64,000 nt of DNA, from contig DASWDU010000035.1 of the NCBI GenBank assembly GCA_036395115.1, forward strand, positions 1 to 64,000. Reading direction: 5' to 3'. How positions within the stretch are numbered: the stretch's first letter is position 1; each line of letters begins with the position of its first letter. The translations under genes were made by a program, and so were the position numbers. Below, in pieces: positions 14,761-21,838 of the stretch. Source of the DNA: Thermoplasmata archaeon (GTDB lineage: Archaea > Thermoplasmatota > Thermoplasmata > RBG-16-68-12). The notes below the pieces were generated by a model. It did no database searches. It was not told the DNA's origin and worked only from the letters and a program-made list of their open reading frames with translations.

Positions 14761-15051
14761 CGGCCAGGAGACCGCGGACGGCCGACGGTGGTCTTTCGGG
14801 ATCGCTGAGGAACGTCCCCCCTCCCTCGGAGCGGTGGCCCCGCGCAAGCGGGGGGCCTGAGAGGGCCGGCAAGGGCGCAGAAACGACACAGCCCGCCTCG
14901 AGGATGATCCGCCCGGCGGTGACGTTGACGCGGGATCTGGTGAGACGGCGACACCCCACCGGAGCAAGTCCAAGCAGGCGCGATGCGCCAGGTAGGACGC
15001 TTAGTCCAATGCCGTCAGAACAGAAGGGGGCGTACGGCGGTCACCTGGCCC
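14761..15051 (+). ncRNA. rnpB: RNase P RNA (archaeal)
   Basis: About 290 nt. Conserved cores are in order: GAGGAACGTCC at 14807-14817, AGAAACGACACAG at about 14879-14891, GGAGCAAGTCCAAGCAGG at 14961-14978, and CAGAACAGAAGGGGG ending at 15030. Helix P4 forms between 14812-14820 and 15026-15033 with the universal bulged U at 14815. The ends close perfectly: GGCCAGG (14762-14768) with CCTGGCC (15044-15050), and GACCGC (14770-14775) with GCGGTC (15037-15042). The RNA cleaves 5' leaders from pre-tRNAs. Its 3' tail is also the left attachment site of the adjacent element. Confidence 0.93.
15026..15051 (+). repeat. attL: direct repeat at the rnpB 3' end
   Basis: This 26-nt stretch is repeated without mismatch at 19817-19842. 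It consists of the 3' strands of RNase P helices P4 and P1/P2. A tyrosine recombinase gene lies 285 nt inside, so this is read as the left attachment site, which preserves an intact RNA gene. Confidence 0.88.
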
Positions 15052-15133
15052 CGTCTGTCGTTCGACATGGAGAGAACGACGGAATCTCACGGCGTACGAG
15101 CCGTGGGACGACGGAGCCCCGTCGAGGGGTCCG

Positions 15134-15173
15134 GAGGCGTCTCTCCATAGGACGACAGACGGTCCGCGTATGT
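15134..15173. repeat. Left-end repeat inside the element
   Basis: Forty nt beginning GAGGCGTCTCTCCATAGGAC match 19925-19965 at roughly three of four positions. Both copies begin the same distance (110 nt from the aligned GGC to the first G of the att repeat) downstream of an att copy. A weak open frame (TTG 15329 down to 15087, minus strand, 80 codons) spans the left copy but shows no recognisable product. Otherwise 15052-15335 holds no confident gene. Confidence 0.6.
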
Positions 15174-15335
15174 TCGCGGGGTCTGCGGGCTTCGGAAACG
15201 GTTCGGCGTATTCTCAGGCCGTCGTTCCCGCGGGAGATTGAGATTCTTCTTGAATCCTCCGGGGCCGGCTAACTGTACACCCAACTGCCGCTCCAGGAAC
15301 CGGAGTGCGGGTTCGAAGTCCGCGTCCAATGCGGT

Positions 15336-16163
15336 TCACCCGTATCCGGGAAGGTCCGATTCATCGTCGGCATCTCGGACCGGGCCGATGACCTTCTCCG
15401 CCTCGCGAACATGGCGAGCGAGGACGTCGCGCCGGTAGTGGAGTAAGATCGTCTTCGGATCCGACCAACCGGCTTGCGACATGAGGCTCCGAAGATCGTC
15501 GCCCCAATTCGTCGCGAGCGTTCTCCGGAAGGTCCGCGGGGTGATGCCTTCCGCGTGATGCTTCCGAAGGACCGCGTTCGGCCACGTCCGATGACGATGC
15601 GGCTTGTCCGTCTCGCCGCGGAAGATGTGGTCCGTCACTCCGGACTTCTCGATGTAGTCATGGAGTTCCGCGGCCGTCTCCCGCGAGAGGATGGACTCAG
15701 CGATCGTGCCGGTCTTCTGCGTCCTTCGACGCAACAGCACGACGTCATCTTCGTTCGCGATGTCCGCGAGCCGCAAGCTCACGATGTCGGAAGGCCTCAT
15801 TCCCGTATCGTGCAAGAGTCGCACGACGAGTCGCTCCTCCGCGTCCTCGATGCGTTCGAGGATGGCGCGATACTCCTTGTCGGTGACGAGCTTCGGGTTC
15901 GCCGCGATCTCCTTGGGCGGACGTCGGATTCGGGCGTCGAGGCCTTTCCACTTCAGGTACAGGTTGACGCCGATGACCTTGTTGCTGAGGGAGTTCTGTC
16001 GGAACTTCGACCGGAGCCACGCCTCGTACTCCTGAACCGCCTCTAACGTGAGGGGCCGCGTTCCGAGCCAACCTTGGAACCGCTTGGCCTCTCGCAGATA
16101 GAGCCGGATCGTGTCCTCCGTCCGCGCTTGAGAGTTCGCCCGAATGAAGACGTCGAACTTCAT
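15336..16163 (-). CDS. Tyrosine recombinase (integrase)
   Basis: 275 residues. The N-terminal SAM-like core-binding domain (TEDTIRLYLREAKRFQGWLG) is followed by the catalytic domain: Arg I in LLHDTGMRPSDIVSLRL, box II as TPRTFRRTLATNWGDDLRSL with Arg present but an atypical residue at the usual His, and the nucleophile region LLHYRR. It would catalyse site-specific integration at the rnpB tail. ATG 16163 is chosen because GAGGAG precedes it; a longer frame starts at 16247. The 16164-16476 gap holds a 16-bp palindrome and no convincing gene. Confidence 0.9.
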   Translation of the reverse strand: MKFDVFIRANSQARTEDTIRLYLREAKRFQGWLGTRPLTLEAVQEYEAWLRSKFRQNSLSNKVIGVNLYLKWKGLDARIRRPPKEIAANPKLVTDKEYRAILERIEDAEERLVVRLLHDTGMRPSDIVSLRLADIANEDDVVLLRRRTQKTGTIAESILSRETAAELHDYIEKSGVTDHIFRGETDKPHRHRTWPNAVLRKHHAEGITPRTFRRTLATNWGDDLRSLMSQAGWSDPKTILLHYRRDVLARHVREAEKVIGPVRDADDESDLPGYG

Positions 16164-16254
16164 CGCGGGCTCCTCCCGCGCGTCTCGTCCGAGAATCCTA
16201 TCGAGGATTCCCGTGCCGATCCCCTTCGTCCCCCGAGAGGGTTGCAACGCGTCT

Positions 16255-16270
16255 CGAGGACGCGTCCTCG
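16255..16270. promoter_or_regulatory. 16-bp perfect palindrome upstream of integrase
   Basis: CGAGGACGCGTCCTCG is fully self-complementary and lies about 90 nt upstream of the integrase start. It may be an operator or a recombinase accessory site. No protein binding can be inferred from sequence alone. Confidence 0.4.
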
Positions 16271-16476
16271 GGGTTCATGTTGCCCAACTACACGGAATCG
16301 TTCCCCTTGGTCCCGTGCGAGGATGCGATGGACCGGGGGCGGCATAAGGCCACCGTCGCGGTTCTCACGGAGAATGGCCCGCCGCAGCAGGGAACGACTC
16401 CCTGGAGGGGAGGGCCGCGGCGGGTTGTCAGCGGCATTCCGTACGGGTGAATAAAGGGACGGCTTCCCGCGCTGCG

Positions 16477-16653
16477 TCATCCGGTCCGCCACCTCCGGAG
16501 GAGCCAGACCGCCAGGACGACCACGCCGACGCCGACGCAGCACGCCGCGACGAGCGGGGCCTGGGACCCGATGATCGCGAGGACGTGCGGAATGGCGAAG
16601 CCCGACGCGAGCGGGCCGAGACTCAGGGCTTGCCGAACCCGCTGGCCCGTCAC
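16477..16653 (-). CDS. Small single-helix membrane protein of the element
   Basis: 58 residues with GTG start whose GTGA overlaps the stop of the zinc-ribbon gene upstream, a sign of translational coupling. One strong hydrophobic segment (APLVAACCVGVGVVVLAVWLL) precedes a basic C-terminus RRWRTG. A longer frame from ATG 16701 would overlap the zinc-ribbon gene by about 50 nt and is less likely. Function unknown. Confidence 0.55.
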   Translation of the reverse strand: MTGQRVRQALSLGPLASGFAIPHVLAIIGSQAPLVAACCVGVGVVVLAVWLLRRWRTG

Positions 16654-16823
16654 GCCCGAGACCTCCTGCGCCCTCCGAAACGGGTGCGAAGCCTTTGCCA
16701 CACGCCGACGCTCGGGCTAAGCTGGGTCTTCAGTTCCGGCGAGCATTCGCGACACCGTTGTCCGGGCCATCGCCATTGGATGAGGCCGCACTCGAGACAG
16801 ACGTACCGCCGTCGGGACTTCAT
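16650..16823 (-). CDS. 57-residue zinc-ribbon protein of the element
   Basis: Begins MKSRRRYVCLECGLIQWRWP, then CRECSPEL and a basic tail ending RRSRA. The four-Cys C-x2-C...C-x2-C ribbon with basic ends suggests nucleic-acid binding, perhaps regulatory. GGAGG lies 6 nt before the ATG at 16823. It overlaps the next gene by 4 nt. Confidence 0.65.
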   Translation of the reverse strand: MKSRRRYVCLECGLIQWRWPGQRCRECSPELKTQLSPSVGVWQRLRTRFGGRRRSRA

Positions 16824-16868
16824 GGCGGCCTCCTATCGACCGCGACGACCGTGCTACTGCGGGAGGAC

Positions 16869-16988
16869 TTCGTCGCCCGTCTTCGAGGCGCCGGCGACGA
16901 TTCTCCAGATTTAGGGGGTGTCAGTTCGTCGCCAAAGTGGCGACGAACGGTTTGACTTCGTCGCCAAGAGGGCGACGAGCGACGAAGT
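16869..16988. repeat. Cluster of TTCGTCGCC/GGCGACGAA inverted repeats
   Basis: Three inverted pairs lie in 120 nt: 16869-16877 with 16893-16900; 16924-16933 with 16939-16948 (10-bp arms, 5-nt loop); and 16955-16965 with 16971-16978, where ACTTCGTCG at 16955-16963 also pairs with CGACGAAGT at 16980-16988. An A/T-rich CTTATACTT promoter box on the minus strand (about 16985-16993) adjoins them. They precede the zinc-ribbon operon and follow the MCM gene, so they may be the element's replication origin, an operator, or both. Confidence 0.7.
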
Positions 16989-17025
16989 ATAAGCCGCCAC
17001 CCTGTTTTCGCGGTCATGTCAGGGT

Positions 17026-19038
17026 CTACTCCCCCTCATGCTCGATTTCCGTCACCCAATTCGCGAGCTTCATCCCGCGGGTCGTAATCATCGCCCCGAC
17101 GCCGGGGAGGGTCTCGATTAGGCCGTGCTCGCGGAGGACTCGGAAATCAGACTCCGCAACGCTCGTCGCATGGACGCCGTACTTTGCGGCGACCTCGTCC
17201 GACGTGAGATGATCCTTCACCGCGAGGTCGACGAGGATCGCGAGCGGACGGCTTCCGATGTCGATGCACGTTTGAAGCGATTCCCCTCCGACGAATTGGA
17301 CCTCGTCCTCGGCATATCGTCGGTAGTCGTCGAGCCGGAGGAGCGCGAACATTCGCTCCAAGAAGTCGACCGCGCTCGCGACGTGCTCGTGCGTCACGAG
17401 GACATCGACCCCCGTCGTCGTCGAGAACGCGAGGCATGCCTCCGCGACGGACACGGAGCAAAGGACGTCGAGATAGCCGAGGTTGACGATCGGCAAGCTC
17501 GCCGCCCCGTATCGCGTCAGGAGGCGGGGCATCTCCTCCCGGATGAGACGGTCCGCGTCCTCCGTGTAATGAACGTCGTCGACGCGGCGCGTCCACGTCC
17601 AGAAGACGTGACGGCGGAAGGCCTCCGCGGGCCACGGTCGGTCGAGATGGAGCGCCTCCGCGATCGTCGCGGCCGGCGTGTCCTCCTCGGCGAACGGAAT
17701 CCAGAAAGGGATTCGACGGACGTCGGGAGGTCGTGCGAACGCCGGGATTTCGCGGATCGCAGACGCGGGCCACGGATAGTCGGACATCGGGAGGCGCGGG
17801 TTCGCCGTCATCAACGTCCGCACGTACGCGGGGCGCGCTCCCTTGAGCTTCATCTGCACGACGACCCGATGATTCGCGAGGACGTCCCGCAATTGCATCT
17901 GAAGTTCCGGGGACCATGCCTCGACGCCGTTCAACGTGAGGAGGCCGAGATGATTCTTCGGGAACGCGCCATACTCGATGTATTCGAGGCCGGCGACCTC
18001 CTTGTGGGTGAACGTGAGTCCCGCACGGGAGGCGGCCGCCGCGTCGACGCCTTGCCCGAGGCCGAGGCCGATCGTGACGTCGTCGACGAGGGCGGTCTTC
18101 GCTGTTCCCGAGTCACCGAAGTAGACCGCATAGAGGACGCCCGCGATCTCATCATGCTTCACGTTGCGAATCTTCGCAATGGAGTGAAGGACGAGGAGAA
18201 TCGCCTCCTTCGCGGTGTCCCGTCCGATGATGTCCGGTGCGACTTCGTCAAAGAGGCGAAGTCGCGTCGAGTTCCGCGACGTCCCCATCGCGAGAAACAG
18301 GTCGCGCTCCTCTCGTCCTAACTCCCGCGGCTCCGGTCGGACGTCCAGCGGCTTGAAGAGTTCCGATACGAGGGAGAGGACGAGCGTCTTCGGGTCCGGC
18401 TCGACCGACGCGAAGAAGAGCGCTCGCGGAGGGACGACGACATCCGTCTCCGCGGGTTGAAGGAGATGCATCGGAAGCTCGACGTCGGAGAACTCGGACG
18501 TCGCCGAGGCCGGAGGGACATACGACGCGACTTGGAGACGGTGATAGTTCACGCGCCGCTTGACCTCGACGGAGAAGCTCGTCTCCCCGAGAGGCCGCTT
18601 ACATCCGCCGAGCTCCTCGGAACATTCGAGGGGTTTCAGAAGCGCGTCTCGCCGTCTCGTCGATGCGAACACATACTCGACGGAGTCGACGGAACGCGTT
18701 TGCGAGGTGCCGCAACGTTTGCACGTCGCGACGACGCGAGACGGGACGAGCATTGGCTCCGAGATTCCGCGGACCTCCGCATCGACGAGGACCTCGCGAT
18801 GTCTCGCGCCAAGCTCCTCAATGCGATACGACGAGGCGAGCCGCTCGATCGGGACACGTCCGCGCTCGACGAGGACGCGACGGACGTCCGATTGGGTCTC
18901 CTTCGTCTCCTTGGCGGTGGCCCCGATCGCATCCTCAATCCGGTCGAGCGCTTCGACCTCGCCGAACGCATCGAGGATGCGTTGTTCGCGCTGAGCGGAA
19001 TCGACCGCGTCTTCGCCGTCGTGCGAAGGCAAGACCAC
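17026..19038 (-). CDS. Divergent MCM-like replicative helicase
   Basis: 670 residues. The N-terminal region has a four-Cys zinc motif (ATCKRCG...LECSEELGGCKRP, about residues 108-148) and a presumed OB domain. The AAA+ core begins IIGRDTAKEAILLVL, has Walker A GDSGTAKTAL (near residue 315), a degenerate Walker B (GLLTLNGVEAW where MCM normally has Asp-Glu), and sensor 1 TLMTANPRL. A winged helix (LTSDEVAAKYGVHATSVAES) ends the chain. It probably unwinds the element's origin. GTG start at 19038, 1 nt after the zinc-ribbon gene's stop. No classical Ser-Arg-Phe arginine finger is seen. Confidence 0.85.
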   Translation of the reverse strand: MVLPSHDGEDAVDSAQREQRILDAFGEVEALDRIEDAIGATAKETKETQSDVRRVLVERGRVPIERLASSYRIEELGARHREVLVDAEVRGISEPMLVPSRVVATCKRCGTSQTRSVDSVEYVFASTRRRDALLKPLECSEELGGCKRPLGETSFSVEVKRRVNYHRLQVASYVPPASATSEFSDVELPMHLLQPAETDVVVPPRALFFASVEPDPKTLVLSLVSELFKPLDVRPEPRELGREERDLFLAMGTSRNSTRLRLFDEVAPDIIGRDTAKEAILLVLHSIAKIRNVKHDEIAGVLYAVYFGDSGTAKTALVDDVTIGLGLGQGVDAAAASRAGLTFTHKEVAGLEYIEYGAFPKNHLGLLTLNGVEAWSPELQMQLRDVLANHRVVVQMKLKGARPAYVRTLMTANPRLPMSDYPWPASAIREIPAFARPPDVRRIPFWIPFAEEDTPAATIAEALHLDRPWPAEAFRRHVFWTWTRRVDDVHYTEDADRLIREEMPRLLTRYGAASLPIVNLGYLDVLCSVSVAEACLAFSTTTGVDVLVTHEHVASAVDFLERMFALLRLDDYRRYAEDEVQFVGGESLQTCIDIGSRPLAILVDLAVKDHLTSDEVAAKYGVHATSVAESDFRVLREHGLIETLPGVGAMITTRGMKLANWVTEIEHEGE

Positions 19039-19039
19039 T

Positions 19040-19207
19040 TCAATCGCCTCGCATCCGCGGCTCCGTGAAGAAGTAGGAGCTCTCGCCGCATTGGGGACAG
19101 CGGTCGAGCTTCTCGCTCAGAATCCAGATCGCGCCGCAGAGGCGGCAGCGGACTTCGCGGCTTCCATTCTGCGAGCGCTCCGATGCGGGAGCGCCAATCG
19201 TTAGCAC
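19040..19207 (-). CDS. 55-residue zinc-ribbon protein upstream of MCM
   Basis: GTG start at 19207, immediately after an in-frame TAA, so it cannot begin further upstream. The ribbon is VRCRLCGAIWILSEKLDRCP followed by QCGES, four Cys in two C-x2-C pairs. The stop is 1 nt from the MCM start, so it is in the same operon. A role as an initiator accessory or regulator is a guess. Confidence 0.65.
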   Translation of the reverse strand: MLTIGAPASERSQNGSREVRCRLCGAIWILSEKLDRCPQCGESSYFFTEPRMRGD

Positions 19208-19210
19208 TTA

Positions 19211-19228
19211 AGGTGCGTTGTCGCACCT
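19211..19228. promoter_or_regulatory. Palindrome at the MCM operon promoter
   Basis: AGGTGCG-TTGT-CGCACCT has perfect 7-bp arms. It abuts a CTTAAG box (19207-19212) at the 5' end of the zinc-ribbon/MCM operon, a position suited to a repressor site controlling replication-gene expression. Confidence 0.55.
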
Positions 19229-19494
19229 GCGCGGTATGGCCCCAAGACCGAGAGTGTCGGGCCGATAACCTTGCTCGGTAGTCCGCGCTCCATTGGAAGC
19301 GGGTATGTACGCGGGGGTCAAAAACGATTCGCATGGAGCGCGGATCGATGAACCCCCGCGGCCGGACGAACCGGCAATCAGGATAGTCCCCGCGGGGCAT
19401 TCAATCTTTCCTTCGCATGAGCGGATCGCCTCGCGCGCGCGCGAGGCGGCCGGCCTCCCCGAGCCGCCGCGGCCGGTCAACTGTGAGGCCGGTT

Positions 19495-19675
19495 GCCATC
19501 ACATCAACCTAAACCAAGCGCTACGTTGACAGTTGACACCTCGGCTTTGGAGCGACACGTCGGGACGAGGGCCGCGCGGCGCGGAAACGTGTGACCCTGC
19601 TCGGCGGCAGCCATCACTACAACCTGAACTAAGCGCTGAGCGCACAGTTCACAGGTCGTCTTTGGAACGAGGCTC
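19495..19675. repeat. Diverged tandem repeat pair near the element's right end
   Basis: Two copies about 115 nt apart start with GCCATCAC at 19495 and 19610. They share CAACCT-AAC-AAGCGCT, CAGTT-ACA and CTTTGGA-CGA at matching order, with a further shared GGAAACG. The surrounding 19229-19816 has no convincing gene. The copies could be recombinase arm sites, partition sites or a non-coding RNA. Confidence 0.5.
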
Positions 19676-19816
19676 GCCATCCCTATCGCACGCGACGACA
19701 CGGCGCAGGAAACGAGGGAACGAGGGCGCGGGAAAGGGCCGGGCCGCATGGCCCGGCATGATGGGGAACGAAGGGGGAGGGCGAGACGCACGTACGACAA
19801 CGTACGGCGAACAGAC

Positions 19817-19842
19817 GGGGGCGTACGGCGGTCACCTGGCCC
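19817..19842. repeat. attR: copy of the rnpB 3' tail
   Basis: Identical over 26 nt to 15026-15051 and preceded by a shared CAGA. It has no RNase P RNA upstream, so it is the duplicated tail left by integration. Just upstream, CGTACGACAACGTACG (19791-19806) is a short inverted repeat. Confidence 0.88.
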
Positions 19843-19924
19843 TTTATGATGCCGCCACGGGGAGAATGATCCCAGCCGGACCGGACATGTTGCCGCCGGC
19901 ATAGGACCCTCTGAACGAGGCTTG

Positions 19925-19965
19925 CAGGCATCTCTTCATAGAACAACAGAAGGCCCCGCGTCTGT
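19925..19965. repeat. Second copy of the left-end repeat
   Basis: CAGGCATCTCTTCATAGAAC and the following 20 nt align with 15134-15173. The distance to the att copy is the same as in the first element. This marks the left end of a related second element whose integrase has been lost. 19843-20032 holds no gene. Confidence 0.55.
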
Positions 19966-20032
19966 CTAGCCGTATCCTGGGACCTCTGGATCGGGCTCAG
20001 GATCCCAGAGCCCTCCTTCTTAGGTTCTTACG

Positions 20033-20296
20033 TCAACGGATCAGTGAGACGACGGCCAAGACAACAGTTGCGCCTGCGAGGACTACGGTGGCAAGGGCGA
20101 GTAGTCGAGTTGCCCTAGCCGTTTTCCGCATCTCATCGAGGGTTTTCTCCGAGGACGCGAGGACGAGATAACTCTCGAGCCCCATGACGTGCTCTGCCAA
20201 CAGTCGAGTCTCAGTCGTTCCCGATGGAGACCTCACGAATGTCCTAACGAGTTCGAGCAATCGAGTCCGAACCTGCGAATCGATGTCCTCGTTCAT
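20033..20296 (-). CDS. Small tail-anchored protein in the element remnant
   Basis: 87 residues: a charged helical N-terminal part (MNEDIDSQVRTRLLELVRTF, then ETRLLAEHVMGLESYLVLAS) and a C-terminal membrane helix (LLALATVVLAGATVVLAVVS). No family recognised. It lies between the second and third att copies. The gap 20297-20464 holds only short unassigned frames, including a possible decayed gene end. Confidence 0.55.
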   Translation of the reverse strand: MNEDIDSQVRTRLLELVRTFVRSPSGTTETRLLAEHVMGLESYLVLASSEKTLDEMRKTARATRLLALATVVLAGATVVLAVVSLIR

Positions 20297-20464
20297 GAGG
20301 CCGAATCGACAGGAAAAGTGAAGTATCTTCGTCTACAGGTGCATCTCCACGTACTCGGGGATCTCACCCTTCCATAGCCGGTTAATCGAGATCCGCTTCT
20401 AGCTGGAACTGTCGAGCCTGGCGGCTCGGGACGACCTCGTTGACCGAGGCCTTGCGTCCCGTCC

Positions 20465-20584
20465 TCAGCGTTCCAAGAGTCCGGTGATGGCGCCAATGAT
20501 TCCACCTACGATTGCGCCAACCGGCCCGCCCACGAAGAACCCGACCGTCATCAAGCCGGGCACCGTGAAGATGACTATCCTCAC
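20465..20584 (-). CDS. 39-residue glycine-zipper membrane peptide
   Basis: GTG-started frame ending in TGA: hydrophobic N-terminus, then GGPVGAIVGGIIGAITGLLE with spaced glycines typical of glycine-zipper membrane helices. A CTTAAG box at 20611-20616 is 27 nt upstream of the start, matching the window's leaderless promoters. It could be a toxin-like or pore-like peptide; that is inference. Confidence 0.5.
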   Translation of the reverse strand: MRIVIFTVPGLMTVGFFVGGPVGAIVGGIIGAITGLLER

Positions 20585-20663
20585 GGGCCGATGACTATGG
20601 GGCGACTACGCTTAAGTTCTTGCACCGGGTCGACGAAAGTGGTCCCGCTCTGGCCGATCCGAG

Positions 20664-20696
20664 CAGAAGGGGCCTCCGCCGGCGGTAACCTGGCCC
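20664..20696. repeat. Decayed third att copy
   Basis: CAGAAGGGG is followed by a GGCGGTAACCTGGCCC end that differs from the att repeat by one base in its last 16 nt; the middle has a few substitutions and two extra bases. It marks the outer edge of the second element remnant. The acetyltransferase gene begins about 95 nt later. Confidence 0.55.
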
Positions 20697-20791
20697 TCGT
20701 ATCCGAGTTCCTGATAAAGGCCCCGATCGCTCCCTGGCGCCCGCTTCGCCGTGCGGAAAGAGTGAAGTGGGGTGCGAAACATGGGCCTGCG

Positions 20792-21838
20792 ATGTCGGAG
20801 AGCCCTTCCCGAATTCGCATTCGCCCAGCGAAACGGGAGGACATCCCGGCCATCGTGACGATCTCGAACGCTTCCGTAAGCCCGGGGGAGGATGTCGGGT
20901 TCGGCACGCCGCAGTCCGAATCATCCTTCAGTGATACGAGGCGGCTCTCTGCTGCGTGGCAGGATCCGAACCGCGTGGGTGGGGAGGAGGTCTGGGTGGC
21001 CGAGGCCGAAGGTCGCGTCGTCGGCTGTGTGATCCTCGAGGATCGGGGCGAAGCGCTCGAGCTGATCAACATCGATGTGCCACGAGATCTGCAAGGCCAG
21101 GGAATCGGCACTCGGATGGTTCGGCTCGTCGAGGAGCGCGCCCGGAAAGAACGAAAGCGCGCCGTGACCCTAGGCACGAGCCGAAACGCGGCGGGGGTGG
21201 CGTGGAAATCGTTCCCCTGGTGGACCTCGCAGGGCTTCCGAGTCACAGGCGAGGAAGAAAACGATTGGACTCGGTCGATCGGGCCGGGGGTTCGGGAAAT
21301 CCGGATGCGGAAGGATCTCCTCGCGCTCGGTGTTCCGACGAGCGACGTCCAACTTCGGGATGTGCGCGAAAGCGACCTGCCGATCTTTTTCGAATTCCAG
21401 CGGGACCCGGTCGCCAACCGCATGGCAGCCTTCACGGCGAGGGACCCGTCGGATCGCGCGGCATTCCAAGCCCACTGGGCGAAGATCCTGAGTGACGAGA
21501 CAATCACGAATCAGACGATCGTCTCCGACGGAAGGGTGGTCGGGCACGTCGCGAAGTTCGTCGACAAGGAGTTCGGCAAGCCGGAGGTCACGTATTGGAT
21601 CGGAAGGGAGTTCTGGGGCAGGGGCTTGGCCACGAAGGCCCTTTCCGAATTCCTCCGTCACGTCGCTGTGCGTCCGATCTACGGTCGCGCCGCGAAAGAC
21701 AACCTCGCGTCCCTCCGGGTCCTGGAAAAGTGCGGGTTCCGAATCGTCGGCTATGCCAAGGGGTTTGCGAACGCCCGAGGCGAGGAAATCGAGGAAGTGA
21801 TGCTGGTACTCGATGCGAACGACGAATCCGCTCGGTGA
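20792..21838 (+). CDS. Tandem GNAT-domain acetyltransferase
   Basis: 348 residues with two GNAT domains. Domain 1 (about 10-170) has the acetyl-CoA loop LQGQGIGTRMV; domain 2 (about 180-345) has EFWGRGLATKALSEFLRHV followed by NLASLRVLEKCGF, as in the RimJ/RimL group. Fused GNATs often pair one active and one structural copy. The substrate is unknown. ATG 20792 is taken because the upstream frame runs through the att remnant. Confidence 0.85.
   Translation: MSESPSRIRIRPAKREDIPAIVTISNASVSPGEDVGFGTPQSESSFSDTRRLSAAWQDPNRVGGEEVWVAEAEGRVVGCVILEDRGEALELINIDVPRDLQGQGIGTRMVRLVEERARKERKRAVTLGTSRNAAGVAWKSFPWWTSQGFRVTGEEENDWTRSIGPGVREIRMRKDLLALGVPTSDVQLRDVRESDLPIFFEFQRDPVANRMAAFTARDPSDRAAFQAHWAKILSDETITNQTIVSDGRVVGHVAKFVDKEFGKPEVTYWIGREFWGRGLATKALSEFLRHVAVRPIYGRAAKDNLASLRVLEKCGFRIVGYAKGFANARGEEIEEVMLVLDANDESAR

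Follow-up and report, generated by a model that had tools for sequence, protein, structure and literature searches.

Genomic islands and integrative elements that occupy the 3′ ends of tRNA and tmRNA genes by means of tyrosine recombinases have been reviewed for bacteria and archaea (PMC8371274), and RNase P is not mentioned as a target in that review of archaeal tyrosine recombinases. In thaumarchaeal CIEs, an integrase and an MCM replication protein are found together in an integrated archaeal element, and for casposons both insertion at the 3′ ends of conserved genes and tandem occupation have been reported (PMC6563490). Integrons, including the archaeal ones (PMC9668308), are arrays of short, mostly integrase-less cassettes of 1–3 genes with a common bounding site. 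An rnpB attachment site was not found in the open-access full text that was searched, and those literature matches for RNase P RNA and integrase that were opened referred to phylogeny, annotation or promoter uses of rnpB.

The stretch of DNA analysed here (the window, 64,000 nucleotides from a Thermoplasmata archaeon) is with high probability explained by an integrative element at rnpB, together with an order-wide docking site for cassettes that probably move in trans. By Infernal, the archaeal RNase P RNA model RF00373 (RNaseP_arch) matched 14766–15046 of the forward strand over the full model (1–288) with 184.6 bits against a cutoff of 84, which confirms the complete RNA that an earlier note had read from the letters alone. 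The 26-nt sequence GGGGGCGTACGGCGGTCACCTGGCCC is present exactly at 15026–15051 and 19817–19842, the two copies being 4,791 bp apart, and no such repeat is expected from shuffled sequences; the perfect recurrence 4.79 kb away was thus found as the note had described it. Its statement that the repeat equals the last 26 nt of the RNA was right as to the exact repeat and needed correction as to its position, since by the Rfam model 21 nt lie inside the RNA and 5 nt just past its 3′ end. The features of the locus are as follows.

14766–15046, forward: rnpB, archaeal RNase P RNA, full length, the only one in a genome of 2.4 Mb; serves as attachment gene with its 3′ end
15018–15051, forward: attL, the rnpB 3′ end plus 5 nt of flank (26-nt core 15026–15051), 33/34 nt identical to attR
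15052–15200, forward: right arm after attL, diverged homologue of 19843–20000 by local alignment
15336–16247, reverse: tyrosine integrase (PF00589, 55.6 bits, cutoff 27.1)
16477–16701, reverse: small predicted membrane ORF, element gene (ORF and codon score)
16650–16823, reverse: small CxxC...CxxC zinc-ribbon-like ORF, tentative (sequence motif)
17026–19038, reverse: diverged AAA+ helicase with an MCM domain, presumably the element's replication protein (PF00493, 36 bits)
19040–19207, reverse: zinc-ribbon ORF of rubredoxin-like type, immediately upstream of the MCM gene (PF21349)
19731–19808, forward: left arm of attR, a GC-rich hairpin and an arm type as in genomes G012, G008, G011 and G024 (alignment)
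19809–19842, forward: attR, displaced copy of the rnpB 3′ end (26-nt core 19817–19842)
19843–20662, no strand: likely older second cassette between attR and the third att, with one small ORF (20033–20296, reverse)
20663–20697, forward: third att copy, degenerate, which marks the distal end of the array (CGGCGGTAACCTGGCCCT, 17/18 nt identical to an attR segment, match at 20680–20697)
20798–21838, forward: chromosomal right flank, GNAT acetyltransferase gene (Pfam GNAT families)

A tyrosine recombinase is accordingly enclosed by border direct repeats that equal the 3′ end of a gene, and that gene is intact. The right arm at 15052–15200 aligned locally to the sequence after attR with a score of 64, when the maximum among 1000 mononucleotide shuffles was 48. 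The GC content of the element interval is 0.646 and that of the flanks 0.650–0.663; because of this resemblance the element is not compositionally foreign.

The integrase, MCM-like helicase and small zinc-ribbon ORFs that had been proposed between the repeat copies were recovered there, the rubredoxin-like match (E-value 2.8e-5, 23.9 bits) being below the curated cutoff of 26.5. The integrase likely starts from the ATG at 16163, and numbered from this start its catalytic residues R123, K150, R210-x-x-R213, W233 and Y243 fall on conserved alignment columns. Assignments to IntI (TIGR02249, 38.6 bits, cutoff 265; NF011946, 22.4 bits, cutoff 435) and to archaeal XerA (NF040815, 82 bits, cutoff 220) were rejected. 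Pfam searches gave no match for the ORFs at 16477–16701 and 16650–16823, and Cas1 was not matched among the element ORFs scanned, so that the locus was not classified as a casposon. The MCM protein was 20–31% identical to MCM-like proteins of the relatives; it had no relative in IMG/VR, where no contig carried the rnpB-tail pattern either, and its sole match among plasmids was a weak primase-helicase hit. Two diverged direct repeats, GCCATCACATCAACCTAAACCAAGCGCTACG... and GCCATCACTACAACCTGAACTAAGCGCTGAG..., recognised by eye about 115 bp apart at 19490–19670 upstream of the MCM gene, are candidate iterons or a candidate origin of the element. A strongly dyad-symmetric 32-nt repeat in tandem (TCGTCGCCAAAGTGGCGACGAA), located at 16917–16980 between the MCM gene and the small ORFs, is a candidate operator or origin.

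In a search of 100 genomes, close relatives of the window integrase were found in three genomes, G036, G033 and G031, which belong to the same order and to families other than that of the window genome. In a tree of 41 integrases these four formed one clade with 100% SH-aLRT support, and no further close members were found in 400 genomes of the class. The G036 and G033 genes stop 16–20 bp before an rnpB-tail core, and the G031 contig stops at the integrase 3′ end, as would fit an assembly broken at a repeat; hence three of the four integrases adjoin the core and the fourth lies at a contig edge. By sequence, the clade is dedicated to this site. Together with the repeat, the integrase and the intact RNA, this bears out the mobile element at the rnpB 3′ end that the earlier note had proposed. 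Its counter-evidence would have been the same integrase and MCM genes without flanking repeats, and in the order no close relative of either turned up among ordinary genes of the chromosome.

The att sites adjacent to the integrases of G033 (L141, 1495–1550) and G036 (L045, 1817–1865) contain an inverted repeat, in G033 ACCGCCGTAAG, 15 nt and CTTACGGCGGT, which may represent two integrase half-sites; in simple folds of three sites, that of G033 folded better than 199 of 200 shuffles. A separate integrase family of 436 amino acids is conserved in the order. Its member in G022 adjoins an rnpB-tail site with an arm type of its own (L128, 6534–7940), and the site of a relative in G031 (contig C17) is degenerate.

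On the basis of this anatomy, the element at 15052–19842 (ca. 4.8 kb) was inserted by its own tyrosine integrase at the 3′ terminus of rnpB, a single-copy gene, within a recombination core composed of the last ca. 22 nt of the RNA and ca. 6 nt of flank. The RNase P RNA is left intact because the element itself carries the rnpB-end sequence: on integration the element-borne core swaps in an equivalent 3′ end, and the anatomy shows the host's original tail displaced to the far end. We infer that the element excises and that the resulting circle is replicated, probably with help of the MCM-like protein.

Behind the element there is likely an older cassette of ca. 0.85 kb that ends in the degenerate third site, which agrees with a second boundary hinted at near 20696. 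A part of this region (20478–20650) was 88% identical to an array contig of G011, and the GNAT gene adjoins the array also in G007, G011 and G012 (L158, L159, L155; protein identity 62–73%). The outer flank of the third site was not alignable to any empty site, and within the genus, where the right flanks vary, no base-precise empty site was found for the window element.

With a 24-nt pattern and at most three mismatches, copies of the rnpB tail were found in 25 of the order's 37 genomes, one of which had as many as 11, and the reversed-pattern control was nearly empty. When the pattern was adapted to the class, two or more copies were present in 12 of the 37 genomes and in four other genomes of a 300-genome class sample, all from family f15. 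Matches in two bacterial-labelled contigs (L182, L190) were discarded as likely chance matches inside coding genes. Tandem copies are spaced by 0.6–4.8 kb, at rnpB and also at secondary loci. Most of the relatives are draft MAGs with contigs broken at repeats; G035 is a single-contig genome. In the relatives, the same-strand intervals between neighbouring copies (n = 30, genes called with a simple in-house gene caller) had a median length of 1.24 kb, and most of them contained 1–3 genes and no integrase, the integrase-less cassettes being mostly 0.6–3.8 kb long. The cargo, in which toxin-antitoxin pairs occur, includes ParE/RHH-type pairs, a PIN protein, pairs of HEPN and nucleotidyltransferase, beta-helix proteins of the NosD type, ADH, methyltransferase, nucleoside phosphorylase, glyoxalase and a collagen-like protein. 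The cargo proteins are mutually dissimilar, the exceptions being a group of three NosD proteins, a HEPN pair and a phosphorylase pair. Of the cassette genes, 29 are on the strand opposite to the site and 16 on the same strand (p = 0.07), a weak polarity.

Two side observations concern single genomes. In G030 (L151, 1868–1910) a second tail core follows 43 nt after rnpB, possibly an emptied cassette site, and transposase-like ORFs occupy the next interval. In G019 (L043, 2705–2970) another contig carries an additional full-length sequence resembling RNase P RNA, which has diverged (72% identity to the rnpB of the window) and may be a duplicate gene, a foreign copy or bin contamination.

Conservation of rnpB in the tail copies extends from about −22 to +6, i.e. 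over a core of ca. 29 nt. A common left arm of ca. 100 nt precedes the core in 16 copies from five genomes (80% mean column identity over 133 columns, core included). The window attR arm represents a second arm type, common to G008, G011, G012 and G024: the region 19731–19844 was 79% identical to contig C30 of G012 over 121 nt, and the arm was 85% identical to contigs C35 of G008 and C63 of G011 over 45–47 nt. The cores were closest to the rnpB of their own family in 47 cases versus 3, with 9 ties, which is no strict test as the copies are interrelated; this pattern suggests that the cores were repeatedly exchanged with the host rnpB or derived from it. An interpretation of the arm as structured RNA is not claimed, owing to little covariation in the consensus fold.

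Whole units with precise boundaries have been gained or lost. The right flank of rnpB in G031, from the first base after the gene, aligns to what follows the final, degenerate att of G035, and therefore three cassettes (ca. 3.5 kb) were either inserted exactly at the rnpB end of G035 or lost from G031. By this alignment G031 is a precise empty site for G035, a closed chromosome; the empty rnpB site that the earlier note had proposed to look for in relatives was thus located to the base for this pair, but not for this exact element. In G033 the methyltransferase cassette directly follows rnpB, and in G035 it comes third, behind two others, as expected if new cassettes enter beside rnpB; no other case allowed an order to be read. 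The HEPN cassette is located between perfect 93-nt rnpB repeats in G032 and is absent from G023, the right flanks of these two genomes being separated by an extra ca. 0.65 kb. Of the phosphorylase cassette, the G035 copy adjoins rnpB and the G031 copy is part of a remote array; the two share 84% of their nucleotides, and the similarity starts at the att core.

Comparison of the genomes shows the rnpB tail as a general docking site in this order of Thermoplasmata, where modular, mostly integrase-less cassettes bounded by related att sites (arm and rnpB core) have piled up in tandem at rnpB and at secondary loci, the newest beside rnpB in the orderable case. The cassettes without integrase would probably be moved in trans by integrases like that of the window, so that the system would work like an integron, or its cassettes like satellites of the integrative element. 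Against action in trans counts that most arrays have no adjoining integrase. It is quite possible, if short of an even chance, that independent elements arrived one by one, each with its own integrase that was later lost, and that the remote copies arose by chromosomal rearrangement, with no trans cassette system at all. Tyrosine-recombinase elements of archaea and bacteria do form arrays at a re-used site (PMC6563490), and some cassettes look decayed, as att copies are degenerate in G035 and in the window and an rnpB fragment without tail is present in G007. However, many intervals are shorter than 1.3 kb, too small for an integrase in addition to the present cargo, one arm type stands at 16 sites beside mostly unrelated genes, and in the phosphorylase case a whole cassette occupies two different places in two species with its boundary at the core.

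That the tail copies are instead a transcription-related 3′ element, such as a terminator or RNA-stability element duplicated behind genes, is very improbable. Copies do often have a stop codon within 10–80 bp, and in the arms there is a hairpin beside an A-rich tract (T-rich on the other strand), but whole gene-plus-site units are precisely present or absent at rnpB, the sites directly adjoin integrases, the arm fold showed little covariation, and the conservation runs ca. 6 nt past the RNA end. An assembly artefact or chance repeat is extremely improbable: although the data are from MAGs and contigs of many relatives break at repeats, the window contig is 71 kb long with relative-like genes on both sides, shuffling produced no such repeat, and the same architecture recurs in the single-contig G035 and in many independent MAGs.

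Docking at rnpB was found outside the order as well. In G138 of family f15, the 3′ end of rnpB recurs perfectly over 28 nt at a distance of 4.16 kb, and the integrase, which differs from the window type, overlaps the rnpB tail with its 3′ end on the other strand. The six best matches in f15, G138 included, are all beside rnpB, and five of the six overlap its 3′ end; a second att copy was found in G138 only, and none in the DNA retrieved around G271, G310, G152, G214 and G300. Convergence on rnpB is seen in no fewer than two integrase clades that are unrelated to each other.

The rnpB gene is essential and single-copy, and this convergence carries the rule that mobile DNA docks at conserved RNA gene ends further than tRNA and tmRNA. 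If the integrase-less cassettes move in trans, their docking site would co-vary with a ribozyme gene of the host itself. With toxin-antitoxin cargo at an essential gene, the stability of the arrays becomes a directly testable question. The elements at tRNA and tmRNA ends are alike in the tyrosine integrase, in the short direct repeat that equals the 3′ end of a conserved RNA gene, in regeneration of the gene on integration and in the possibility of tandem arrays; they differ in that the target here is the essential single-copy RNase P RNA gene and many units have no integrase. Small integrative plasmids and MCM-bearing CIEs share the integrase and MCM combination, whereas the present element is only 4.8 kb long, targets rnpB and, in contrast to the CIEs, carries a strongly diverged MCM. 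Casposons resemble it in 3′-end insertion and tandem occupation, with Cas1 in place of the tyrosine recombinase.

Integrons have in common with the present system their array structure, here a cassette array with a common site (30 intervals; arm type at 16 sites), the toxin-antitoxin cargo, and newer cassettes beside the primary site, the last in the one orderable case here. Membership in the integrons was rejected on the integrase, with IntI scores far below cutoff, and on gene polarity, which is weak; moreover, the site here derives from rnpB and arrays occur at secondary loci too. A likeness to integrons in working remains by analogy, and if the cassettes move in trans, archaea would own an independent, non-IntI equivalent of the integron.
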